DNA from: Oscillatoria salina IIICB1
GTDB taxonomy: Bacteria > Cyanobacteriota > Cyanobacteriia > Cyanobacteriales > SIO1D9
Direction: 5' to 3'
Assembly: GCF_020144665.1 (NCBI RefSeq)
Contig: NZ_JAAHBQ010000019.1
Span: forward strand, 1-64,000
Length of the DNA: 64,000 nt
Shown: positions 2,476-34,407 of the stretch, in pieces
How positions within the stretch are numbered: position 1 is the stretch's first letter
How the letters are laid out: each line of letters opens with the position of its first letter
The notes under the pieces: model-generated
What the model saw: only the letters and a program-made list of their open reading frames with translations
Database searches by the model: none
Told to the model about the DNA's origin: nothing
Translations under genes and position numbers: made by a program

Positions 2476-3009
2476 ATGCCTACTCAACAACAACAAGCTA
2501 AAACTAATACTTCTTTATCTCCTGAAACTCAAAAAGTAATAGATGCTTTTAATAAGCTCGGTACCGATGACAAACTCGCATTATTGTACTATGCTTATGA
2601 AGAAATGGGAGAGCAAATAACTCCTGCTGCTCCTAGTGCAGCCGAGCCAGAACTTGCACCTAAGTTATTAGGAGATTACCTGGAATTGTCCGACGACGAA
2701 CAACTGCAAATTATGCGCGATATTGCGGAAAAGAAAGACACTGAATGGTCGCGCTTATATGGCGGATTAAAAGCTAATAATCAGCTCGTAGTTTGGTATT
2801 CTTGGGCGCAAGAAATGGGCAATAAAGTTGTAGATTTCCCTCAAGATTACAAAGCTAATTCAGCAACGAATAAAGCGCTAGAAAATATAGAAAAACTAGA
2901 GTTTGAACAACAAATTTCTTTCTTGCGTCAGGTGGCTAGTGAAATGGGCTATAGTGAAGTTAAACCTACTCCGACACAGCAAGAAACTGGCAAAACTCCA
3001 AGTTTGTAA
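2476..3009 (+). CDS. Helical carotenoid protein (stand-alone OCP N-terminal domain)
   Basis: The 177 residues match the all-helical carotenoid-binding N-terminal domain of orange carotenoid protein, with no NTF2-like C-terminal domain. Two helical subdomains are visible: LALLYYAYEEMG (about 35-45) and LVVWYSWAQEMG (about 104-115). Tyr41 and Trp107 fall where OCP Tyr44 and Trp110 hold the carotenoid rings. The N-terminus is Gln/Thr-rich and the C-terminus is a short flexible tail. Known helical carotenoid proteins bind canthaxanthin-type pigments and quench singlet oxygen; some quench the phycobilisome. No C-terminal-domain partner gene lies in the window. Confidence 0.9.
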   Translation: MPTQQQQAKTNTSLSPETQKVIDAFNKLGTDDKLALLYYAYEEMGEQITPAAPSAAEPELAPKLLGDYLELSDDEQLQIMRDIAEKKDTEWSRLYGGLKANNQLVVWYSWAQEMGNKVVDFPQDYKANSATNKALENIEKLEFEQQISFLRQVASEMGYSEVKPTPTQQETGKTPSL

Positions 3010-3196: not shown

Positions 3197-4180
3197 TTAA
3201 CGCTTTGTAGCGCTTACTCCTAAATAGACTCCCAGCAGAACAATCCCAAAAGCGATCGCATTCCAGAGATTGAGAGTTTCTCGAAAGGCAAACCAAGCAG
3301 CGATCGCCGACAAAACCGGATCTAATAACAATACTAATGCAACCAAGCTCGCTGAGAGTTTGCTAGTGCTATAAGCAAACAGCCCTAACGCCACTAATTG
3401 ACCCACAATCGCCAATGCAGCCACAGCTAGCCAGCCATTAAATGAAACTGGAAAGAGTCGTTCCCCCAAGATCAGAGTCACCACAAAATTAACCGCCACT
3501 CCGGTTAAGGAAGCCCAGAACAAGATCTTCAAGCTGCTTACTCTAGTTCCCAGACGTTCTGTTCCCATCAGTTGCATCGCGAAGAAAACTGCTGAAGCTA
3601 AGGCTAAAAGATCGCCTTGAATTTTGTGAACATCCAATTGAATGTCATTAATACTCAGGGTTACTGTGCCAATTAAAGCAATGCTAGTTCCCAGCAAAAA
3701 TCGGCGCTCAAATCGAGTTTGAAAAACTAACCAACCCCCCAGTGTCGTAAATAAAGGAGTTAAGTTGTGCATCAAAGCCGAATTAGCTACACTGGTTTGA
3801 GTCAGCGACCATGCCCAAACTACAGGCATCGCAGCAAAAGAAATTAAAGTAACTCCCCAAATCAAATATTGGTAACTAGACTCTGCTTCATTTGTCTCAG
3901 CTTCCAAATTCGCCTGCTGCTGAGACACTGATAAATTAGCTTCCGATTTCGGGAATCGAAGTGCCTGGAATCCTTGCCAACTAGCCAAAATCAACGCCGC
4001 AATCCAACAGCGATTAAAAATTGTCGCCTCTGGACTCAGTTCCATCTCACACCAACGAACTAAGAGTGGTACAAAAGCAGCAGCGATCAACCCAACGGCA
4101 AGAGCTGCGATCGCCAGCCAATGACTAGGTTTTTTTTCTTCGACTGCTTCTGCTCTTTCAGTAGCTAGTTGGCTATTCAT
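3197..4180 (-). CDS. EamA/DMT-family transporter
   Basis: A 327-residue membrane protein with about ten hydrophobic segments arranged as two EamA repeats. A Gln/Glu-rich loop (about residues 82-103) follows the second segment. DMT proteins of this type usually export small metabolites or amino acids. It is the last of eight minus-strand genes, 11 nt after the dehydrogenase-like gene, so it is probably in the same transcript. That position suggests export of the cluster product or of an intermediate. The substrate cannot be inferred from sequence. Confidence 0.85.
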   Translation of the reverse strand: MNSQLATERAEAVEEKKPSHWLAIAALAVGLIAAAFVPLLVRWCEMELSPEATIFNRCWIAALILASWQGFQALRFPKSEANLSVSQQQANLEAETNEAESSYQYLIWGVTLISFAAMPVVWAWSLTQTSVANSALMHNLTPLFTTLGGWLVFQTRFERRFLLGTSIALIGTVTLSINDIQLDVHKIQGDLLALASAVFFAMQLMGTERLGTRVSSLKILFWASLTGVAVNFVVTLILGERLFPVSFNGWLAVAALAIVGQLVALGLFAYSTSKLSASLVALVLLLDPVLSAIAAWFAFRETLNLWNAIAFGIVLLGVYLGVSATKR

Positions 4181-4191
4181 ACTAGATTTCT

Positions 4192-5154
4192 CTACTGTGA
4201 ATAATTTTTAATCGGCACAAAATCAAGGTCAGTCAAAGTTTTCTGCTTCTCTCCTGACAAATAATTCCTTAAAGTGTCCTTCCACTGATTAATCCGACGC
4301 AAGAAACACTCTTTCGTATACCAAGCGCGACGGCAACTCAGAACAGTATTGGGCGTTTCCAGAAAAAAGTCTACTACCAGTAAATCCAGCGCCACACCAC
4401 CAATTTCTCCCCGATTTAGGGCATCACGCACCGCCATCATATCCATTACATCATCTGGAGATGTATTAACAATCAAAGCAGTGGATTTCATCCGTTTGAG
4501 GGTATCAGCATTAATCATGTGGTGAGAATCATGATTCAAGGGAGTAGTCAGAAAAATTACGTCAGAGGTTTCCAGGAGTGTATCTAAACTGACACTTTTG
4601 GCAAAGCTACTTTGACGTGGAGAGCGGTTGTAATACTGCAACTCCATGTTGAAACCACTCAACAACCGTGCCACGTAACTACCAATGTTACCAAAGCCAA
4701 TAATTCCTGCTGTTTTACCAGCTAGTTCTGTACCAGGATAATCGAAGCAATCGGTGTTGCCCTGACGCACTTCCCGGTTAAGATCGGGAATTTTACGCAT
4801 AGCAGACATCATCAAGGCTACCGCGTGTTCTGCCACTGACGAGCCAGTATAATTTTCGGTATTGAAAATCTGGATACCGTGTTGGCGACAGTATTCTGAA
4901 TCAATAAAGTGGGTGGAAATAGTCGTAGCAATAATTGCCTCTAGGTTAGGCATTTGCTGCAAATACTCCGCCGTCAGATTCATGTAAGTAGTGATGATGA
5001 TGTGGCTGTCAGCATGAGTTTTAATTGCTTCGCTCAGTGAAAAAGCACTACCAGTTTTCTGATACCAGGCAACCTCCAATTGCTCCCTGAGATCGTCTAA
5101 GTGATTTTCAGGGATTGGTTCGCGATCGTTTAAGATCAAACACTTCTTTTTCAT
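4192..5154 (-). CDS. D-2-hydroxyacid dehydrogenase-like protein lacking catalytic residues
   Basis: This 320-residue protein has the fold signature of NAD-dependent D-isomer 2-hydroxyacid dehydrogenases, including the cofactor-binding GIIGFGNIGSYVA (about 149-162) and an NRS after the second strand. The catalytic positions are changed. Where the family has N-T-x-R-G it reads NTSPDD (Pro233 for Arg). Where it has an E-P it reads VVDFF (Asp262 for Glu). Where it has T-P-H-I it reads SCRRAWYT (Arg275 for His). Normal hydride transfer to a 2-keto acid is therefore unlikely; it may bind NAD(H) as a regulator or do other chemistry. It starts 3 nt after the methyltransferase stop, so the two are probably translationally coupled. 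Confidence 0.8.
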   Translation of the reverse strand: MKKKCLILNDREPIPENHLDDLREQLEVAWYQKTGSAFSLSEAIKTHADSHIIITTYMNLTAEYLQQMPNLEAIIATTISTHFIDSEYCRQHGIQIFNTENYTGSSVAEHAVALMMSAMRKIPDLNREVRQGNTDCFDYPGTELAGKTAGIIGFGNIGSYVARLLSGFNMELQYYNRSPRQSSFAKSVSLDTLLETSDVIFLTTPLNHDSHHMINADTLKRMKSTALIVNTSPDDVMDMMAVRDALNRGEIGGVALDLLVVDFFLETPNTVLSCRRAWYTKECFLRRINQWKDTLRNYLSGEKQKTLTDLDFVPIKNYSQ

Positions 5155-5157
5155 CGG

Positions 5158-5805
5158 TTAATCCTCAGTATCAACTACCTGGTAAATACAATAAATGACT
5201 TTGCGATCGCCATATCCTTCACGCTTGGGCAAATACACTACCGGATCGCTAACACTTTCTCGGCGTAGTTCTCCACGTTGCTCAAACCCAGAAAGGACTT
5301 TACCATAGTTGTACTGCTTAAACAATACTTCTTGCTGAGTAAATACTAGATATCCCTGGGGACGTACTAAGCGGCGAAATTCCTGCAAGACTGGGGTGGG
5401 GTCGGCAATTAGGGAAAAGACTCCAACACAAGCGATCGCTGCAAAACTGTTTTCCGCAAAAGGGTATGGTGTTTTACTCAAATCCTGCAAACTCAGAAAA
5501 TTATAGTGACCTGTGGCTTCTGCTTGAGCTAGCATCTCTGGTGAAATATCAATCCCAGTAATGTTTTGATAGCCTAAATCTACTAACGCCTGTCCTACTA
5601 ATCCAGTACCACAACCTGCATCGAGAATAGGTTGGTCTGTGGGTATGTAATGATGCAAAGCCTCTGCTGCGGTGCGATAACACTGATATCCCCAATCATC
5701 AACTGATTGGTTATAAACGGGCGCAAAGTTAGTATAGCGTTCTACTACATCCAAGTTCTTTAAGTCAGTTTGGGAAAGGTCAGAAAGTTTTAATTTCTTG
5801 TTCAT
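5158..5805 (-). CDS. Class I SAM-dependent methyltransferase
   Basis: A 215-residue Rossmann-fold methyltransferase. Motif I is LDAGCGTG (61-68), the acidic end of strand 2 is GIDIS (84-88), and CVGVFSLI lies where motif IV is expected. The ATG at 5803-5805 is preferred over an in-frame start 29 codons upstream. The 44-bp duplicate at 7041-7084 preserves exactly this leader and start (MNKKLKL) right behind the PhyH gene, where an operon start is expected. It probably methylates O, N or C of the cluster intermediate; the substrate is unknown. The adjacent dehydrogenase-like gene is 3 nt downstream. Confidence 0.85.
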   Translation of the reverse strand: MNKKLKLSDLSQTDLKNLDVVERYTNFAPVYNQSVDDWGYQCYRTAAEALHHYIPTDQPILDAGCGTGLVGQALVDLGYQNITGIDISPEMLAQAEATGHYNFLSLQDLSKTPYPFAENSFAAIACVGVFSLIADPTPVLQEFRRLVRPQGYLVFTQQEVLFKQYNYGKVLSGFEQRGELRRESVSDPVVYLPKREGYGDRKVIYCIYQVVDTED

Positions 5806-5827
5806 AGTTTTAGTCTTCTCAAGATTA
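5784..5827. repeat. 44-bp direct repeat, copy 1
   Basis: This matches 7041-7084 in 42 of 44 positions and in the same orientation. It covers the leader and the first seven codons of the methyltransferase gene. The two copies bracket the plus-strand PhyH gene, as expected after an insertion or segmental duplication. Confidence 0.9.
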
Positions 5828-6120
5828 AAGATACAATTAACTTTTGATCGCCAAAACGGGGTTATGTCCTTAAGACTTTTGTCTCTACTCAAGCGACCCG
5901 AAATAAGTATACTATCTGAGCATTTGAGTCTTGCAATTGCATCAATACTTTTTTTATAGACATTCCCGAAAAATTGTTAACCCCCCAAACCTAAATAGTT
6001 ACTGTACTATTAAATCATAATTTACCATTTAACATCCTTGACATAAAGTAAAAATAATGATATTTATATATTATTTGCTGCTTTATTCTTCTTCAAAAAT
6101 TTATTTTACTGAGGTAGTTA

Positions 6121-7014
6121 ATGATTACTTCTCAAAGTCAATTCGTTAATGAAATTGAGATATCTAGTTCAGATATTCACTCTTTTAGTAAGCAAGGATT
6201 TCTCAAACTAAAAAAGTTGTTTACTCCTCAAGCAATAGAGTATTTTAAAGAGTTGACACTCGCTCAAATAGCAGCACCTGCTGGATTTTATCCCAATTCT
6301 GAGATGTCAAAACTAAAATATGGAATCAATAACTCTGTAATCAAAGAAATGTACTCATCCAGAGAGTTTGATGTCTTCAATAAACTTACTCAGAAAAAGC
6401 TCTTATTTTTGCAAGGTGTTGGCTTCCAAATGGATACAGAAAAAAAAGGTTTTGACTGGCACGTAGGAGTGTTCAGCTTTAATTTTTTGATGCCAGAAGA
6501 TTTTGCTTGTTCTTTGTGGATACCATTAGATCCTATTAACACTAGACAGCAACATGGTGGAATGGCTTATGTTCCCAAAAATGTTGTTTCCGCAGACACA
6601 TATTTCTTTCTTGTAGACAGACTAATTAGAGAAGATGATTTCCTGGAAGCTCTTAGTTTAGGTCAATTTAACAATTTTTATCATGCTCCTGAAATGGAAG
6701 CTTTTTTACTAGAAAAAGACAAGATAGAAGATGATTTTGAAATTGGTGATGCTCTACTTTTTGACAAATTTGTTTGGCATAGAAGTTGCCCTCTTAAACC
6801 AGGAAATTTAAAATCTAGAACTGCATTTGTGATGCGATTTTCTGGCGACAAATCGCGCTACTCGAAAACATTGCTAAATCGGCTTGATTTAGCAATGGAA
6901 AGACTAAACTATAATACTCAAACCAAACTGGGTTCTAAATTTTCGGAACTTAGTGATGGTGATTTAATCTTAGAGATGAACAAAAATTATGTTGGGGCAA
7001 AAGCTAGTGTTTAA
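6121..7014 (+). CDS. PhyH-fold Fe/2-oxoglutarate enzyme with H-x-G motif (candidate halogenase)
   Basis: A 297-residue protein of the phytanoyl-CoA dioxygenase (PhyH) fold. The family layout is clear: WHVGVFSF (metal His114), then SLWIPLDPIN, then GGMAYVPKN, then FVWHRSC (distal His220) and SRTAFVMRF (Arg233 for 2-oxoglutarate). At the Asp of the usual HxD triad the protein has Gly116. In Fe/2-oxoglutarate halogenases the same loss of the carboxylate opens a site for chloride or bromide. The start ATG has TGAGG six bases upstream. It is the only plus-strand gene in the block, is AT-richer than its neighbours, and is flanked by 44-bp direct repeats. Alternatives are an altered oxygenase or a dead enzyme. 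Confidence 0.75.
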   Translation: MITSQSQFVNEIEISSSDIHSFSKQGFLKLKKLFTPQAIEYFKELTLAQIAAPAGFYPNSEMSKLKYGINNSVIKEMYSSREFDVFNKLTQKKLLFLQGVGFQMDTEKKGFDWHVGVFSFNFLMPEDFACSLWIPLDPINTRQQHGGMAYVPKNVVSADTYFFLVDRLIREDDFLEALSLGQFNNFYHAPEMEAFLLEKDKIEDDFEIGDALLFDKFVWHRSCPLKPGNLKSRTAFVMRFSGDKSRYSKTLLNRLDLAMERLNYNTQTKLGSKFSELSDGDLILEMNKNYVGAKASV

Positions 7015-7040
7015 TTTACGTATATTTAGCTACTTTTGAA

Positions 7041-7084
7041 AAAGTTTTAATTTTTTGTTCATCGTTTTAGTCTTCTCAAGATTA
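7041..7084. repeat. 44-bp direct repeat, copy 2
   Basis: It starts right at the stop codon of the downstream PhyH gene (minus strand) and carries a copy of the methyltransferase leader and first seven codons. It differs from 5784-5827 at two positions. Confidence 0.9.
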
Positions 7085-7969
7085 GACATTAGCGATACTT
7101 TTCTTCGTGCGCCCATGTCGAATACTGACACCTGTTTTGGGGTCGTCAGCAGTTTCTACTTCAAAGAACTTTTGTGTTTCAAAAATGCCGTTATATTGCT
7201 TTTCACGCAGGGCAGAATCAGGAACTTTCTCTAAGGGAATGTAGCGGTGATGTTGTTGATTGTCCAGGTTATAAGGCTCGTTACTCACCACATTGTAAGT
7301 ACAAAATAACGCTACGCGAATGTCATTTGTTTCATTGAGATCGGAACCATGTAAGGTGTTGGCATGGAAGAACACAGCATCACCCTGTTGCAACTCGCAG
7401 TAAACAATTTCCAAACGATCCAGCACAATTTTTAAGCGTTCTGGATCTGCACAACTAGAGTTAGAATTAGGCAGCATCACATTTTCTATCCTTCCCAGAT
7501 GGTGAGAACCCTTAGCAATCTGTAAACAGCCGTTCTTGCGGGTATTTTCATTAATAGCAATACAACAGCTAACAAGTTTAGGATATAAACAATAATCCTC
7601 GTACCAGGTACCAAAACCTTGATGCCAAGCAACCGAACCCTCTGTTGGCTTTTTCAAGACTATTTTCGAGTGCCAATGATAGCATTCCTCGCCTTCGAGT
7701 GCTTCTGCTGCATCCACTACGCGAGCCATACGAGGTATAACACCGAGCATACTATCTCCTAGCTCACTCCAAACGGAAAGCTTAAAGCCAATTCCACCAT
7801 AATCAACTTCCGATTGGGTATTATTTAAGCTACGATCGCGATCGCAAGCTTGTCGTAGGGGTTCGATTTCCTCTGGAGCAAAAAAGTTACGGACAATAAC
7901 ATAGCCATGCTCGTGGTAGTGAGCAATTTGTGCTTGGGTCAAGGGAAATTCGGTTTTGATTTTATTCAT
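7082..7969 (-). CDS. PhyH-family Fe/2-oxoglutarate enzyme with H-Q-G motif (candidate halogenase)
   Basis: A 295-residue PhyH-family protein, closely following the family block WHQ[D]-x-G-x-WYxxxCLYP. Here it reads AWHQGFGTWY: Gly118 sits in the place of the iron-binding Asp (codon GGT, one base from GAT). His116, the distal His207 (TLHGSDLN) and the 2-oxoglutarate Arg218 (DIRVAL) are kept, as is the jelly-roll block NGCLQIAKGSH. A kept cofactor Arg with a lost carboxylate is the known pattern of Fe/2-oxoglutarate halogenases. The ATG at 7967-7969 is preferred; a TTG five codons upstream is possible. It is the fifth gene of the minus-strand cluster. A hydroxylase with altered ligation, or an inactive protein, cannot be excluded. 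Confidence 0.82.
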   Translation of the reverse strand: MNKIKTEFPLTQAQIAHYHEHGYVIVRNFFAPEEIEPLRQACDRDRSLNNTQSEVDYGGIGFKLSVWSELGDSMLGVIPRMARVVDAAEALEGEECYHWHSKIVLKKPTEGSVAWHQGFGTWYEDYCLYPKLVSCCIAINENTRKNGCLQIAKGSHHLGRIENVMLPNSNSSCADPERLKIVLDRLEIVYCELQQGDAVFFHANTLHGSDLNETNDIRVALFCTYNVVSNEPYNLDNQQHHRYIPLEKVPDSALREKQYNGIFETQKFFEVETADDPKTGVSIRHGRTKKSIANV

Positions 7970-8035
7970 GAAAGTCAATCTCAATGTTTTTGGACTAATT
8001 TGTGCTGAATGTTGAATGAAGAAAGCTCACATAGC

Positions 8036-9448
8036 TTAGGTTAATCTTGCCTCAAGCTTCTGTTTTGCTGCCTCTTGACCAGCAATACGCCCAAATACCA
8101 GACATTCAGTTATAGAAGTGGTACTCAAACGTGACACACCGTGAACGCCACCAGTTACCTCACCCGCAGCATATAAACCCTCAATAACTTTGCCCTCAGT
8201 ATTAAGAACCTGAGCCTGGGAATTAATCCGCAAACCGCCCGTAGTATAGTGAACTTTGGGCCACAAGCGGACAGCGTAATAGGGAGGCTTTAGGGGTTGG
8301 GAAACTGGTGGAATGGGTTTACCAAAATCATCATCGTGACCTTGGATAACAAAGTGATTGTACCGTTCCAACGTATCTAGTAAAACTGAGTAGGGTAGGC
8401 TGTAATGAGCAGCTAAATCCTCCAAATTATCAAAAGCATATACTACTTGACGCCGTAAACATTTATCAATAGGCTGTCCAGATAAAGCGACACCTTGAGC
8501 ATCAGCAATACCTATACAAGGGGATGCGATCGCCAACATCGCATCTACGTGAGTTTTTCGGTCTGCTAACTCGTTAACAAAGCGCTTCCCCGTTTCAGGA
8601 TGAATTAAAACCCCGTAAGGAAACACTGTATAGCTAGCTAGCAAAGCTGCGACTCCGTAACCTTTTTCATCTGGTGAGGTAAATGGAGCTAGTTGAATAT
8701 GTTCTAAATCCACCGTGTCAGCACCAATACGCATTGCCTCTTCCAGAGCTTCGGCAGTAGCATGGGGCATATTTGTACAACCAATCTCCCCCCCTAATTT
8801 GGCATCGAATTGTTGACGAAATTGAACGTCAGCAGAGAAACCACCAGTAGCTAATATTACTGCTTTTCGAGCATGAATCCATTGTGCATCTTGCTTTCTG
8901 TTCAAGAAAGGAACCACCTGAACGCCGTTAACTCGCCCACGGTCATCCAAAGACAACTTAGTCATTTGCCAACCATTTCGAGGTATCACTCCCAGACTTT
9001 TCAGCTTCTGCAACATAGGCTTGATAATCGTAGTTCCGATCGCTTTTTTGGGTGTCAAACTACGAGCTACTCTATGTCCAGCAAATTGATTTGGGCTTTG
9101 TCGAAAAGCAATACCTAAATCCTCTATTAACCAGTTACAGATATCTGGTGTATGCTCTGCAAGAGTTTTTACCAGAGACAATTGGTTGGTATTCCGCCCA
9201 GCTTTGAGCATATCCTCCAATAAATATTCAGGACTATCTTCAATCTGAGCTTGTTGCTGTAGAGAACAGCCTGTTGCCACTAGCACTCCATCGCTGATAA
9301 TCGAATTACCACCGCAACTCGCACGCTTTTCCAAAAGGATCGCCGCAGCCCCCAGGTTAGCTACTTGAATAGCCGCCATCAAGCCAGCAAAGCCACTGCC
9401 AACTACGATTACATCGGTTGTTTCATTCCAAGGAAGCTGATAATTCAT
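8036..9448 (-). CDS. FAD-dependent oxidoreductase, fumarate reductase/flavocytochrome c type (second of pair)
   Basis: A 470-residue flavoprotein. The dinucleotide motif GSGFAG is at 17-22, and the C-terminal FAD block AAGEVTGGVHGVSRL is at about 427-441. Candidate substrate-site residues of the fumarate reductase family are kept: Arg297 in NELADRK, His400 in KVHYTTGG and Arg440. The first family His (in HPT) is replaced by an LAPFTS segment, so the substrate probably differs from fumarate. Such enzymes reduce or introduce a C=C bond next to a carbonyl. There is no heme domain or signal peptide, so it is cytoplasmic. It is a paralog of the next gene upstream. Confidence 0.85.
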   Translation of the reverse strand: MNYQLPWNETTDVIVVGSGFAGLMAAIQVANLGAAAILLEKRASCGGNSIISDGVLVATGCSLQQQAQIEDSPEYLLEDMLKAGRNTNQLSLVKTLAEHTPDICNWLIEDLGIAFRQSPNQFAGHRVARSLTPKKAIGTTIIKPMLQKLKSLGVIPRNGWQMTKLSLDDRGRVNGVQVVPFLNRKQDAQWIHARKAVILATGGFSADVQFRQQFDAKLGGEIGCTNMPHATAEALEEAMRIGADTVDLEHIQLAPFTSPDEKGYGVAALLASYTVFPYGVLIHPETGKRFVNELADRKTHVDAMLAIASPCIGIADAQGVALSGQPIDKCLRRQVVYAFDNLEDLAAHYSLPYSVLLDTLERYNHFVIQGHDDDFGKPIPPVSQPLKPPYYAVRLWPKVHYTTGGLRINSQAQVLNTEGKVIEGLYAAGEVTGGVHGVSRLSTTSITECLVFGRIAGQEAAKQKLEARLT

Positions 9449-9516
9449 TTTTTCTACTTAACATAACCAGCTATCAAGACACTTCATTGTTTTTCTGCCT
9501 AGATATCAATCCCAAG

Positions 9517-10962
9517 TTATCCTGGTGGAAGTGTTTCAACTGCCTGAAATTTAATTTCCTGATGAGAGCTTATTTGCTCATCCCATTCTTCGTGAATGTC
9601 GTCTTCTATGGCAGCTTGCCGTCCAGCAATACGACCAAAGACAAGACACTCAGTAATCGCGCAGCATCCCAGGCGGCAAACACCATGAATACCACCAGTA
9701 ACCTCACCAGCAGCATAAAATCTGGGGATAACTTTTCCGGCTTTGTCCAACACTGCCGCTTGGGGGTTAATCCGGACTCCGCCCATAGTGGAATGTGCCT
9801 TGGGCCACAAACGAACGCTATAGAAAGGTGGGTTTAAAGGCTTGGCTTTTGCGGGAATGGGTTTACCAAACTCTTCATCTAAGTGCTTCTCGACATAGCT
9901 ATTGTAGGTTTGGAGTGTTTCTTCCAGCGCCTTCTCTGGAAGTTGATGATAGTCTGCTAGAGCAGCCAGAGAATCAAAACGCCGGGTCACAGTGTCATCC
10001 ATGTGTTCGTGAATCATCTCACCAACATTTTCCAAGCCCTGTTGGTCAACAATTCCAACGGGAAAGTTTTCCAAAGCCATCATCGCCTCAGCACGAGTTT
10101 TGCGGTCTGTCCATTCGTTGACGAAACGCTTTCCTGTAGCTGGGTTGACCATAAATCCGTAGGGAAAGATTGCATAACTAGCAAATACGGCGGCAACTCC
10201 TCTACCCTGCTCATCTGGGGAAGCACAGGGCAACATTTGCAAATGCTCCATGTCAATTAAGGCTGCACCAGCACGTTCAGCAATCCGGAGAGTTTCGCCA
10301 GTGGAATCGCTGAGACTGGTTCGCAGAGCATCTTTACCTGCTGCTTCACCACTGAAACCGCCACTAGCCAGGATTATTGCCTTTTTAGCTTCGATTGTGA
10401 GACTTTCTGCCCGATCTGGAGTAGAAACTAGAGAGGCTCTAACTGCGATCGCTGTGCCTTGGGAGGTTTGGTAAATCTCTTCCAGGCAAGTGTTAAGACG
10501 GATATCCACCTTCAGGCTTGCAGCCCGCTCTAACATGGGATTGATAATGTTTCTTCCTTGGATTTCTTCGACACTGTGGCATCGTGGTACGGAATGACCG
10601 CCAAGTTGTTCTAGCCTGTCCATAAACTCGATCCCAAAGTCTTGACGCAGCCACTGTAGCACCTCAAAGGAATGGATACAAACAAGACGCACAAGTTCTG
10701 GGTCATTCGTACGTCCTGCCCGCATCATGTCTTCAAACATCAGACGAGTAGAATCTACAACACCGTGGCGGCTCTGCATAACTACATCTACTGCTGCTAA
10801 TGCACCGCCACTAATCCAGGAGTTACCTCCGTAAGAATCCCGCTTTTCTAAGACAATTACTGAACAGCCTGCTTGGGCAGCTTCGATCGCTGCTGCTAGA
10901 CCTGCAAAACCACTACCAATTACAATTACGTCAGTGCTTTCATCCCAAGAAGTCTTAGACAT
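9517..10962 (-). CDS. FAD-dependent oxidoreductase, fumarate reductase/flavocytochrome c type (first of pair)
   Basis: A 481-residue paralog of the neighbouring flavoprotein. It starts MSKTSWDESTDVIVIGSGFAG, has NEWTDRKTRAEAM (active-site Arg region), KAHSTMGGVRIN, and ends with AAGEVTGGIHGVCRL and ECLVFGRIAG. The start at 10960-10962 is chosen because GGAGGTGG lies six bases upstream; a longer frame starting at 11049 would lie inside the preceding gene. The ATG overlaps the stop of the aldolase gene by eight bases, which indicates translational coupling. As in its paralog, the HPT His is absent (MLPCAS). Two different but related flavoproteins in one operon suggest two steps or a heterodimer. 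Confidence 0.85.
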   Translation of the reverse strand: MSKTSWDESTDVIVIGSGFAGLAAAIEAAQAGCSVIVLEKRDSYGGNSWISGGALAAVDVVMQSRHGVVDSTRLMFEDMMRAGRTNDPELVRLVCIHSFEVLQWLRQDFGIEFMDRLEQLGGHSVPRCHSVEEIQGRNIINPMLERAASLKVDIRLNTCLEEIYQTSQGTAIAVRASLVSTPDRAESLTIEAKKAIILASGGFSGEAAGKDALRTSLSDSTGETLRIAERAGAALIDMEHLQMLPCASPDEQGRGVAAVFASYAIFPYGFMVNPATGKRFVNEWTDRKTRAEAMMALENFPVGIVDQQGLENVGEMIHEHMDDTVTRRFDSLAALADYHQLPEKALEETLQTYNSYVEKHLDEEFGKPIPAKAKPLNPPFYSVRLWPKAHSTMGGVRINPQAAVLDKAGKVIPRFYAAGEVTGGIHGVCRLGCCAITECLVFGRIAGRQAAIEDDIHEEWDEQISSHQEIKFQAVETLPPG

Positions 10963-11950
10963 AAGCTTCCACCTCCCCGAACACCTGTTCAATTTTCGTG
11001 TAAGGTTGGCGGGGAATTTGTTGCAGATAATGGGCTGTTTTCTCCCCATATCTTTCCATCAGTGGCTCTACCCAAAGCTGTGCCAAATTTTTAGCACCAA
11101 CTAAGTAGTAAAGATAACTCTTTTCTGCTGGCATGGGTACGTCAAAACGGCTCAGTCGCTCCAGAGGCTCGTAACGATAGGGCTTGTTGGGTTCCTTTTG
11201 CTGCACAAGTGCGATCGCATATTGCAACTTAGTATTGCCGCTACCTAAGCCTAGTCCATTGACTGTACCATCAATTACTTGACAGCCTGCTTCCAAAGCC
11301 ATCAACGCATTGACGGTAGCAAATCCGGTGTTGTCATGAGCATGAAAACCAAACAATCCTTGCCAATTTTCCCGCACGATTTCCACTATCCTACTGATAT
11401 CTTCTGGTCGGCAAGCTCCCCGTGAATCGGCGAGGTAAAATACATCTACTACACCCGATTGTTGGACTTTTTGAGCAGTAGCCGCGAACTGTTGCGGTAG
11501 CAAAGTGGAAATATTGACCAAGTTTAAGCTAGTCGCAATGCCGTACTCACTAGCTGCTGCTGCAACTCGCAAAGCGTCGTCTACTTCTTCGACGGTACAG
11601 GGAATTCTGACTAAATCTAAGACTTCTTGGCGACTGGCAAATAAGGTTTTTGGCTCTTTTTCACTTAAACTAATCATTACCGCCAGGTTGATTTTGCCTT
11701 TGGTATGTTCGCGCAGTTCGCTAAGTAAATCAGCGTCACAACGTGCAGCTAAGGGTTTGTCTGGCTTATCGCTGATGTAACCTACCTCAATAGCTTCGAT
11801 GCCAGTTTCTGCCACACCTCCTACTACGGCAAAAATTTCCTCGCGAGAAAATGACCAGCCATTCAAGTAACCAGCATCTCGCAAAGTGGCATCCAGTACA
11901 CTATGAGCATCTAGGAAAAAACTTGTCTGCTTGATAGTTTGTTTTCTCAC
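10955..11950 (-). CDS. DRE-TIM metallolyase (HMGL-like / 4-hydroxy-2-oxovalerate-aldolase-like)
   Basis: A 331-residue TIM-barrel protein of the HMG-CoA lyase/isopropylmalate synthase superfamily. The N-terminal motif is DATLRDAGYLNGW (Asp20, Arg24, Asp25) and the metal-binding pair is GFHAHDNTG (His203, His205). The DxTLRDxGYxNxW form is closest to the aldolase-catalytic-domain group rather than to LeuA. The family makes or breaks C-C bonds next to a 2-oxo acid or acyl-CoA. The usual Gly after Arg-Asp is Ala26. The start is GTG. It is the second gene of the cluster, 22 nt after the HpcH/HpaI gene. Confidence 0.85.
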   Translation of the reverse strand: MRKQTIKQTSFFLDAHSVLDATLRDAGYLNGWSFSREEIFAVVGGVAETGIEAIEVGYISDKPDKPLAARCDADLLSELREHTKGKINLAVMISLSEKEPKTLFASRQEVLDLVRIPCTVEEVDDALRVAAAASEYGIATSLNLVNISTLLPQQFAATAQKVQQSGVVDVFYLADSRGACRPEDISRIVEIVRENWQGLFGFHAHDNTGFATVNALMALEAGCQVIDGTVNGLGLGSGNTKLQYAIALVQQKEPNKPYRYEPLERLSRFDVPMPAEKSYLYYLVGAKNLAQLWVEPLMERYGEKTAHYLQQIPRQPYTKIEQVFGEVEAYV

Positions 11951-11972
11951 GATCGTTTGTAGTAGTTCAGAT

Positions 11973-12761
11973 TTATACTCTAACGAACTGCTCGGAGGTT
12001 TGCACTAAAGTGCTAGCTTTATCCAGTTTGGCTTGGCTGGTAGCAATCCGTGACTGATAAAATTCCTGGCGGTTGGGATTAATCTCTATCAAAGACTGAT
12101 AATAGGCAATCTCAAATTCGATTCCTTTCCAGATAGAAGCGGTTACATCTGTTACTCGATTAAGGTCAAACATGGTGTGGATAGTGCTGAGACGGTCAAT
12201 ATTAAATTTTTGAAGAGAGACTGCACTATTAGGATTAACAAAGCCTCCTACAGAAACATGTTTACCCAGACGACGTACTTGATTAGCTAAATCTTGAGTG
12301 ATTTGGACAACTTCAGGATTATCCACATTGTTCATCTGCATCGAAAGGGATAAATCTAAACGCCCGATAACCACTGTATCAATTTCCTTAAAGTAAGGAC
12401 TGTTGAGGATTTCATCCAACTTGTGATATCCCTGAATTGTCTCAATATTGATGGCTAAAGTTGGATTAATTTCACTTTCTTCGTAAGCTTTTTGAGTTGT
12501 AATGACAAATTTTTCTAGGGCATATTCAGACTCGACCATCGGACAAAGAATTCCATTGACACCTATTGCCCGTAAGTGACGCAAATCTGTTCTAGCTTCT
12601 GAACCAGCAATTTTAACGAAAATAGGAATCTCTTTTTGACCTATTCTATAAAGATAATCAATCTCTGAATAGTTCATATCTTCCCACTCGGTTCCAGCTT
12701 TGAGTGCATATAAACCATACTGAGAATTCATGAGCTTGAGCATAGCTGTTAAATTGCTCAC
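11973..12761 (-). CDS. HpcH/HpaI aldolase / citrate-lyase-beta-like protein
   Basis: A 262-residue TIM-barrel enzyme of the PEP/pyruvate lyase group. The metal ligands are visible as Glu107 (AINIET) and Asp136 (IGRLDLS), with the conserved MVES block at 75-78. Family members cleave or form 2-oxo-3-hydroxy acids (pyruvate plus aldehyde) or split citramalyl-type CoA esters. It starts with GTG, with GGAG ten bases upstream. It is the first gene of the minus-strand cluster, so the cluster promoter should lie in 12762-13167. The C-terminal 40 residues (helical, rich in Gln and Ser) go beyond the barrel and may contact a partner. Confidence 0.8.
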   Translation of the reverse strand: MSNLTAMLKLMNSQYGLYALKAGTEWEDMNYSEIDYLYRIGQKEIPIFVKIAGSEARTDLRHLRAIGVNGILCPMVESEYALEKFVITTQKAYEESEINPTLAINIETIQGYHKLDEILNSPYFKEIDTVVIGRLDLSLSMQMNNVDNPEVVQITQDLANQVRRLGKHVSVGGFVNPNSAVSLQKFNIDRLSTIHTMFDLNRVTDVTASIWKGIEFEIAYYQSLIEINPNRQEFYQSRIATSQAKLDKASTLVQTSEQFVRV

Positions 12762-13167
12762 AAGTAAAATACTCCATTAGTTAGATTGATTAATTAGAGT
12801 GAAACAGGGTAAGCTTATCTAATTTAGTGATTATAATCGCAAAAATTTAAAATGCAAATAATTAGTCGGAAATTTGGGTAAAAGTTGCTTATTTATCAGT
12901 ACATTTATTCTATTAAAGTCTCAAGTTTAACTGGCTTCGAGTAAAAGAAAAAAGCTTTGCTTAGTTTGTTTTGGTTATAGCTGAAGAGTTTTGTTCGAGC
13001 GAGTAAAGGTGCTGATGTATAAAGCTTAAAAATACTTATTGGATCGCGCGTTTTGAGATCGACTCAAATAAGGCTTGTTAATAAGATTTGTTACAATTTT
13101 AGTTGTTGCCCTATTGCGTAATTAAGTTTAAAAGCTGAGGATTATTATATTGGAGAGGGAATTATTA
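12762..13167. promoter_or_regulatory. AT-rich divergent intergenic region, cluster promoter region
   Basis: About 400 bases separate the first gene of the minus-strand cluster from the plus-strand gene at 13168. Both must be transcribed from here. The sequence is AT-rich with no open frame that looks coding. I see no clear -35/-10 pair that I would commit to, nor a recognised operator. Confidence 0.4.
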
Positions 13168-13701
13168 ATGAATGCTAAATTCCACGTACCTAGATCGGTT
13201 AAGTTTCCCGAAGCGATCGATCTCGCTCAGTCTTTACTAGCACGCATGGAAGCAGGTAAAATAAGTGAAGAGAAAATTAAAATGGCGATCGCGTCTTTGG
13301 TTTCTACGGAAGAGGGTGCAAGAGGTTTCTTTGTCACTTATCTTACCGATGAGAGAAGTTTAGCAGATCGTCCTTCACCTGCAACGATCGCTGCTTTGGA
13401 AACTTCTCCAGAAATCGTCGCTGAGTTATTAGTGAAAAACATCGCGATGTCAGCAGCAATGGTTGTTTCCCATCGTCGCAATCATAATGAAAAAATGGCA
13501 CAGGATTCCGAGCGCGTGTGTCGGCGAACTGCTAATCTAATTAAAGAGGTAAACTTAGTTTCTTTACCTAAGAAATTACAGCAATTACAAGAAAGCGCAG
13601 CGACAGGAGAAGGAAGTTATCAAGAGTTTCTCCAGCGTTGGAATTACGATCGCGAACAAAGAGAAGTTATCCTACAAGCTATAGGAGAAATTAATTATTA
13701 G
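13168..13701 (+). CDS. Conserved-looking cytoplasmic protein, unknown function
   Basis: A 177-residue, mostly helical soluble protein with no hydrophobic segment. The ATG at 13168 is chosen because GGAGAGGGA lies just upstream; a TTG 18 bases earlier overlaps this ribosome binding site. The middle (VKNIAMSAAMVVSHRRNHN) is basic and the second half is charged and helix-forming. It overlaps the end of the convergent membrane protein gene by 11 bases. No family is recognised. Confidence 0.75.
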   Translation: MNAKFHVPRSVKFPEAIDLAQSLLARMEAGKISEEKIKMAIASLVSTEEGARGFFVTYLTDERSLADRPSPATIAALETSPEIVAELLVKNIAMSAAMVVSHRRNHNEKMAQDSERVCRRTANLIKEVNLVSLPKKLQQLQESAATGEGSYQEFLQRWNYDREQREVILQAIGEINY

Positions 13702-33953: not shown

Positions 33954-33959
33954 GCTTAG

Positions 33960-34033
<74 letters not shown>

Positions 34034-34324: not shown

Positions 34325-34333
34325 CCTGATGAG

Positions 34334-34407
<74 letters not shown>

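Follow-up and report, generated by a model that had tools for sequence, protein, structure and literature searches.

A carrier-free gene cluster with two HxG-type iron/2-oxoglutarate proteins in Oscillatoria salina IIICB1, a candidate source of a small halogenated and methylated acid

The window analysed was the 64,000-nucleotide (nt) stretch of Oscillatoria salina IIICB1 (GCF_020144665.1, NZ_JAAHBQ010000019.1, positions 1–64,000, forward strand); the genome that carries it (5.96 Mb in 163 contigs) was the sole member of its family among the 243 genomes of the order searched. The gene cluster under study (positions 3197–12761 of the window) comprises eight minus-strand genes, in the order of transcription HpcH, DRE, FAD1, FAD2, PhyH, MT, HADH and DMT, and one plus-strand gene, HalCur. 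The features, in the same order, are (aa, amino acids; Fe/2OG, iron/2-oxoglutarate; SAM, S-adenosylmethionine):

11973–12761, minus strand: HpcH, HpcH/HpaI aldolase/citrate-lyase-like protein, 262 aa, GTG start (PF03328, 39 bits)
10955–11950, minus strand: DRE, DRE-TIM aldolase/synthase (HMGL-like), 331 aa, GTG start (PF00682, 93.5 bits)
9517–10962, minus strand: FAD1, Fcc3/urocanate-reductase-like flavoprotein without the cytochrome domain, ATG at 10962 (TIGR01813, 393 bits)
8036–9448, minus strand: FAD2, second Fcc3-like flavoprotein (TIGR01813, 424 bits)
7082–7969, minus strand: PhyH, Fe/2OG enzyme in which WHQG replaces HxD, likely start ATG 7969 (PF05721, 104 bits)
7041–7089, no strand: copy of a 49-nt direct repeat just past PhyH, duplicating the 5' end of MT (92% identical to 5784–5832)
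6121–7014, plus strand: HalCur, stand-alone homologue of BtnX and of the CurA halogenase domain, WHVG motif (phmmer: BtnX 3.8e-38, CurA 2e-27)
5784–5832, no strand: the 49-nt direct repeat at the start of MT
5158–5805, minus strand: MT, class I SAM methyltransferase, likely start ATG 5805 (PF08241, 70.7 bits)
4192–5154, minus strand: HADH, 2-hydroxyacid-dehydrogenase fold with Pro in place of the family Arg and Arg in place of the His (PF02826, 147 bits)
3197–4180, minus strand: DMT, EamA-family exporter (PF00892, 96 bits)

All eight minus-strand genes listed in a first-pass annotation of this DNA were found, and the family names given there agreed with the Pfam matches (EamA, 2-Hacid_dh, Methyltransf_11, PhyH, FAD_binding_2 twice, HMGL-like and HpcH_HpaI). 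The small gaps and overlaps described there were recovered in part: gaps of 3–68 nt were measured (HpcH–DRE 22, FAD1–FAD2 68, FAD2–PhyH 66, MT–HADH 3, HADH–DMT 11) and DRE and FAD1 overlap by 8 nt, but PhyH and MT are 1276 nt apart. HalCur, previously unlisted, sits in that gap; with a plus-strand gene between PhyH and MT, the co-directional run is interrupted. The earliest possible start of PhyH is 7984, ATG 7969 being likelier; the longest open reading frame (ORF) of MT begins at TTG 5892. No carrier-protein, non-ribosomal peptide synthetase (NRPS) or polyketide synthase (PKS) family was present among the Pfam matches of the nine genes, in accord with the first description as regards NRPS and PKS; HalCur gave no Pfam or NCBIfam match at E ≤ 0.001.

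HxG was found in both Fe/2OG proteins. In PhyH, WHQG aligned with WHQD of leucine hydroxylase, its best solved match (ectoine hydroxylase EctD was third), and with WHAD of Okeania, i.e. Asp is replaced by Gly, as had been read before. Residues 6–284 of the 297 of HalCur aligned with BtnX (9pv1), and WHVG stood at the same place in HalCur, BtnX and the CurA domain (3nnf), which we take to be a halogenase; the second His and the 2OG Arg of HalCur were retained, in the roles that these residues presumably have in PhyH and HalCur alike. HxG, second His and 2OG Arg are common to PhyH, HalCur and the Fe/2OG radical halogenases SyrB2, BesD, SecA and AdaV, if the iron sites of these enzymes are as we take them to be; unlike them, PhyH has leucine hydroxylase as nearest solved relative and falls under the chlorinating-enzyme cut-off. 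Unlike BtnX and CurA, HalCur is a stand-alone gene in a carrier-free cluster, and the closest relatives found for it are HxD (Okeania, G229). As a second halogenase homologue, HalCur would add to the idea of halogenation. HXG/A is given as a mark of Fe/2OG halogenation in a preprint (PMC12871659), and SecA, an HXG/A protein inside an HXD/E clade, chlorinates according to PMC12171316.

Relatives of PhyH at E ≤ 1e-25 were found in 15 of the 243 genomes of the order (own genome included), at 16 places; together with two Okeania proteins, and with the window counted once, a clade set of 18 proteins was obtained. The residue at the HxD site was D in nine, G in eight and A in one; the first His, the second His (TLHGSD) and the Arg (DIRVALF) were kept in 18/18 rows. 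Near-identical rows were L086/L087, L088/L089, L094/L095 and L061/L063, so that independent cases are fewer than rows. The tree indicated at least four changes at the D/G/A site (one column was removed by number from an earlier alignment and may lie a few positions off; no effect is expected). Sister proteins differ at this ligand in two well-supported pairs, L083 (G)/L085 (D) (100/99) and L091 (G)/L092 (D) (100/100); if the HxG members halogenate, such proteins are natural matched pairs for what makes a hydroxylase into a halogenase. To our knowledge, few halogenases attack unactivated carbon in free small molecules, and such enzymes are much in demand. The occurrence of G or A in half of the rows with the other ligands intact, taken with the Asp-free site in the solved relatives of HalCur, is unlike simple decay. 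For PhyH, an AlphaFold model built on three sequences had a mean pLDDT (predicted local distance difference test) of 30 and was not used.

Genome contigs were scanned with a HADH alignment, one genome per species, and 14 loci were returned. DRE adjoins HADH in 10 of the 14; among these ten a methyltransferase was found in nine (not on the short contig L062), a FAD homologue in nine (none in the 20.9 kb examined of Thioploca L067), HpcH in five and PhyH in two. Locus L068, a fragment of 3.8 kb, carries just MT and HADH; L069, L070 and L071 (remote HADH; no DRE, FAD, MT or HpcH) were rejected as cluster loci and counted as misses. When the 243 genomes of the order were searched with DRE, five matches outside the own genome reached E ≤ 4e-47, and each has a FAD and a HADH homologue at most 10 kb away. 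Neither was present in the 16–20 kb examined for the three matches that follow (E 4e-30 to 3e-27), one of which (L049) has an EamA homologue. At least four of the five loci overlap the ten HADH-bait loci (L062/L064/L065/L066 are apparently, by their equal lengths, the same contigs as L045/L047/L046/L044 and were not counted twice); the fifth is a second Moorena (L043). The first-pass annotation had allowed that the genes might prove scattered and never together in other genomes; they recur together.

Three kinds of locus were distinguished. Type A (L058 and L060, Thiotrichaceae metagenome-assembled genomes, and L059, Candidatus Thiobius; Gammaproteobacteria, which we take to be sulfur bacteria) has the order HpcH-FAD1-DRE-MT-HADH, a core 55–79% identical to that of the window; MR/MLE-like genes come after it, and two of the three loci also have a TauD gene there; no PhyH match was found within the loci examined and no HalCur-type match in the genomes. 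DRE is 64–73% and MT 65–79% identical to the type A copies, and HpcH 45–71% to the copies in L058–L061 and L063. Type B (Okeania, L061 and L063) has the order MR/MLE-MT-HADH-HpcH-DRE-PrpD-FAD-PhyH at 33–59% identity, with a single FAD2-like flavoprotein; the FAD gene of Okeania hirsuta is split into two ORFs (L061:14516–16037), that of Okeania SIO2C9 (L063) being intact. Type C (Moorena, Roseofilum, Oscillatoria and Thioploca) has DRE at 30–32% identity, HADH and usually FAD and MT, with additional aminotransferase, class II dehydroquinase-like and arginase-like genes; at least two of these loci also have a FrhB-like gene.

In the trees FAD1 and HADH of the window grouped with type A (100/100). 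The window cluster may accordingly be composite: a type A five-gene core, to which the FAD2-PhyH pair and a later-looking insertion of HalCur would have been added. The origin of the FAD2-PhyH pair is judged from adjacency, the two being neighbours in Okeania too, since the PhyH tree leaves the window protein unplaced. The two MR/MLE partners tested scored best against cis-3-hydroxyproline dehydratase, below its cut-off; the own genome gave no match to the Okeania MR/MLE partner, an empty result that alone shows little. HpcH was discarded as a cluster bait: 56 of 57 matching genomes had it at 27–34% identity only, and among seven such low-identity loci with flanks of ≤10 kb a DRE homologue was present only in L053. 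Plasmid tblastn with HpcH gave three records of 24–27% identity; a viral-contig scan with FAD2 gave three pattern-matched stretches, none of them confirmed.

The copies of the 49-nt repeat flank HalCur, one spanning the MT start and the other following PhyH; the simplest reading would be that HalCur entered a ready-formed operon at a point between PhyH and MT. HalCur matches at E ≤ 1e-8 were found in 2/386 genomes of the phylum, own included, and at E ≤ 1e-5 in 3/11 HADH-bait genomes, as follows: Moorena SIO3I8 (L081), an intact WHVG homologue beside a cluster-type MT at a contig end; Okeania hirsuta, two HLD genes in a separate locus (L080, on a second contig) and one CurA-like stretch that forms part of a longer frame; Okeania SIO2F4, a fragment that is short and broken. 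The match in L077 covers 60 residues with a stop. The second Moorena (L043) has the gene order FAD-Hal-MT, its Hal gene being broken and reading HAD. The HLD genes of L080 stand in tandem in a small cluster of their own; near them are an aminotransferase homologue, a HADH that reads TPHIA and, judged by eye, a pyridoxal-phosphate-decarboxylase-like ORF. In L074 (G229) a HalCur-like gene reading HHD lies beside MR/MLE and HIBADH-like genes; sulfotransferase-like, short EamA-like and methyltransferase-like ORFs were noted there by eye.

FAD1 and FAD2 are 46% identical. FAD1 matched Fcc3 at E 4e-64; in comparison with 1e39 and 1kss, the active-site Arg pair of Fcc3 is kept and the His pair is replaced by Leu and Ser, the roles of these residues in Fcc3 being assumed. 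FAD1 thus has the flavoprotein family and two active-site Arg in common with the fumarate/urocanate reductases of the Fcc3 kind, but neither the cytochrome domain nor the two His; without the latter it probably acts on a carboxylate other than fumarate. FAD2 grouped with the Okeania flavoprotein at 81/84 only, with a long-branch flag. The best PDB match of DRE was 3dxi, a putative aldolase (7.8e-27).

The HADH model (pLDDT 79) has a 2-hydroxyacid-dehydrogenase fold. Arg is replaced by Pro (versus phosphoglycerate dehydrogenase) and His by Arg in RRAWYT (by eye versus TPHIA of the L080 enzyme), and SPD and RR, which hold the two changes, were invariant in 11/11 members; judged as a D-2-hydroxyacid dehydrogenase, HADH has both the catalytic Arg and the catalytic His replaced, at positions that we take to be the catalytic ones of these enzymes. 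In Foldseek, acyclic imino-acid reductase Bsp5 (6p2i) ranked second. The HADH–Bsp5 alignment ran through the C-terminal AWY motif, alone among the four best sequence matches. HADH has in common with Bsp5 the fold, the loss of the catalytic His and the AWY motif; it differs in having lost the Arg too, and no oxidase partner is present in the window. Given the loss of Arg and His, and Bsp5 among the nearest solved relatives, an amino or imino acid is as plausible as an oxo acid. Acyclic imino-acid reductases of the Bsp5 kind are the subject of PMC11876095.

From these data a carrier-free pathway is proposed, with a probability of about 0.5, that would lead to a small halogenated, methylated non-proteinogenic amino or oxo acid and to its export. 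HpcH and DRE would act on pyruvate-like units in an aldol-type reaction that gives a short 2-oxo acid; a C=C bond beside a carboxylate would be reduced or introduced by one of the Fcc3-like flavoproteins or by both; the HADH-like protein would reduce C=N (imino acid) and not a 2-oxo acid; MT would methylate; PhyH and HalCur may halogenate an unactivated C–H of the free molecule, HxG leaving room for halide on iron; the EamA protein would export the product. The recurrence observed in ten HADH-bait loci and in five genomes of the order supports the pathway. The preference for an amino acid is based on what PhyH and HADH most resemble among solved proteins, and on the aminotransferase and arginase-like genes seen in type C. 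The model of the first-pass annotation, C–C bond formation, flavoprotein chemistry, halogenation, methylation and export of a small acid, is retained in so far as the carrier-free set of C–C-bond, flavoprotein, HxG-type Fe/2OG, methyltransferase and exporter genes is conserved, but the cluster looks composite, and an imino or amino acid is now no less plausible than an oxo acid. Its failure to recognise a described pathway agrees with the literature searched (subscription journals mostly uncovered), where no description of the gene set or of the cyanobacterial PhyH clade was found among the papers listed. The set would probably be overlooked by cluster finders based on NRPS/PKS logic.

A number of observations weigh against the proposed pathway, most of them against its halogenation steps. 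PhyH scored 33.7 bits versus the 226.3-bit cut-off of the NCBIfam chlorinating-enzyme model TIGR01762, which covers one subfamily; in the PhyH tree the window protein was neither beside that of Okeania nor in a well-supported group. The PhyH of the Okeania cluster is HxD (hydroxylase-type), and so the pathway can run without halogenation; HxG can also be compatible with lost activity, i.e. a dead site, in some members. HalCur had no match (E ≤ 1e-5) in 8/11 bait genomes, all three type A genomes included, and among the three that matched only Moorena has a relative beside the cluster. The nearest HalCur relatives found read HLD (L080, Okeania) and HHD (L074, G229), whence homology alone does not decide halogenating activity; HalCur lies on the opposite strand, between the two repeat copies, and may have a substrate of its own. 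These absences, the strand and the repeats, the HLD and HHD relatives and the broken HAD gene of L043 would all suit a biosynthesis of a small acid that involves no halogen, PhyH (HQG) being degenerate or catalysing another reaction and HalCur being an unrelated passenger. This alternative is considered unlikely, given that G or A was read in 9/18 members of the PhyH clade with the remaining ligands kept in all, and that the site is Asp-free in both solved HalCur relatives, BtnX (named a halogenase in the PDB) and CurA.

Other points bear on the amino-acid side of the proposed pathway. There is no aminotransferase gene in the window; glyoxylate and phosphoglycerate reductases ranked around Bsp5 in Foldseek at similar E-values, one of them first; McyI and formate dehydrogenase chains likewise matched into the C-terminus of HADH, and the distinction of Bsp5 covers four alignments; Bsp5 keeps the Arg that HADH has lost. 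The imino-acid link of HADH is a weak one. Less likely than synthesis free of halogenation is a catabolic operon that degrades an acid, with retro-aldol cleavage by HpcH and DRE and the EamA protein serving an overflow product. Both families include catabolic aldolases, and Thiotrichaceae L058 adds MR/MLE, TauD and arylmalonate-decarboxylase-like genes, with no exporter seen in its operon. DRE and HpcH belong to the same superfamilies as 4-hydroxy-2-oxovalerate aldolase and HpaI, but the scores are far lower: DRE gave 109 versus 229 and 99 versus 286 bits against 4-hydroxy-2-oxovalerate aldolase cut-offs, and HpcH 23 versus 369 and 23 versus 407 bits against those of HpaI and GarL; on these values a known meta-cleavage operon was rejected. 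No ring-cleavage or acetaldehyde-dehydrogenase family, nor any other catabolic partner, was present in the nine genes, and methyltransferase, exporter and HxG enzymes fit such an operon poorly. The most improbable of the alternatives weighed is that the pathway supplies an unusual acid or sugar for the decoration of a glycan on the cell surface. Such a role would account for the ca. 30% identical HpcH relatives that occur in another class of the phylum, in members with small genomes, for the HpcH and DRE homologues ca. 4 kb apart in L053:9816–15638 (G220), where an acylneuraminate-cytidylyltransferase-like ORF was seen by eye, and for the mannose-1-phosphate-guanylyltransferase-like ORF (by eye) that adjoins the cluster in Thioploca (L067, 13526–14941); against this, no glycosyltransferase or nucleotidyltransferase family was found in the nine window genes, the other loci being judged by eye.

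A wider reading is put forward as possible but doubtful: that the carrier-free pathways of cyanobacteria and sulfur bacteria that lead to small (amino) acids form a modular family, in which a tailoring Fe/2OG enzyme was repeatedly switched between HxD (hydroxylase) and HxG/HxA (halogenase), its neighbours being kept. If this were true, related clusters would make a hydroxylated product in one strain and a halogenated one in another. For the first sister pair, three adjacent genes are common to L098 (G) and L105 (D) at 54–63% identity, namely an FcoT-like gene, a methyltransferase and PhyH; for the second, L100 and L107 have PhyH alone in common within the DNA compared. L099 (G) and L107 (D) have five genes in common (47–75%), but the order differs and the two PhyH proteins do not form a sister pair; as this pair has neither the same order nor a sister relation, the probability of the switch is lowered.

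Further PhyH-clade loci were noted as follows. In L104:8633–11681 (G354), HQG and HQA genes flank an arylmalonate-decarboxylase-like gene, so that both halogenase-type residues (G and A) are found within a single locus. HQD genes lie near EamA homologues in L108 and L109; L108 also has (by eye) a 2431-aa PKS-like ORF and radical-SAM-like and Rieske-like ORFs.

Around the cluster in the window, a 183-aa ORF without Pfam or NCBIfam match lies upstream on the opposite strand (13150–13701); a stand-alone N-terminal domain of the orange carotenoid protein is encoded at 2476–3006 (PF09150, 203 bits); two tRNA-Met genes were located on the same strand at 33959–34033 and 34333–34407, with 299 nt between them.

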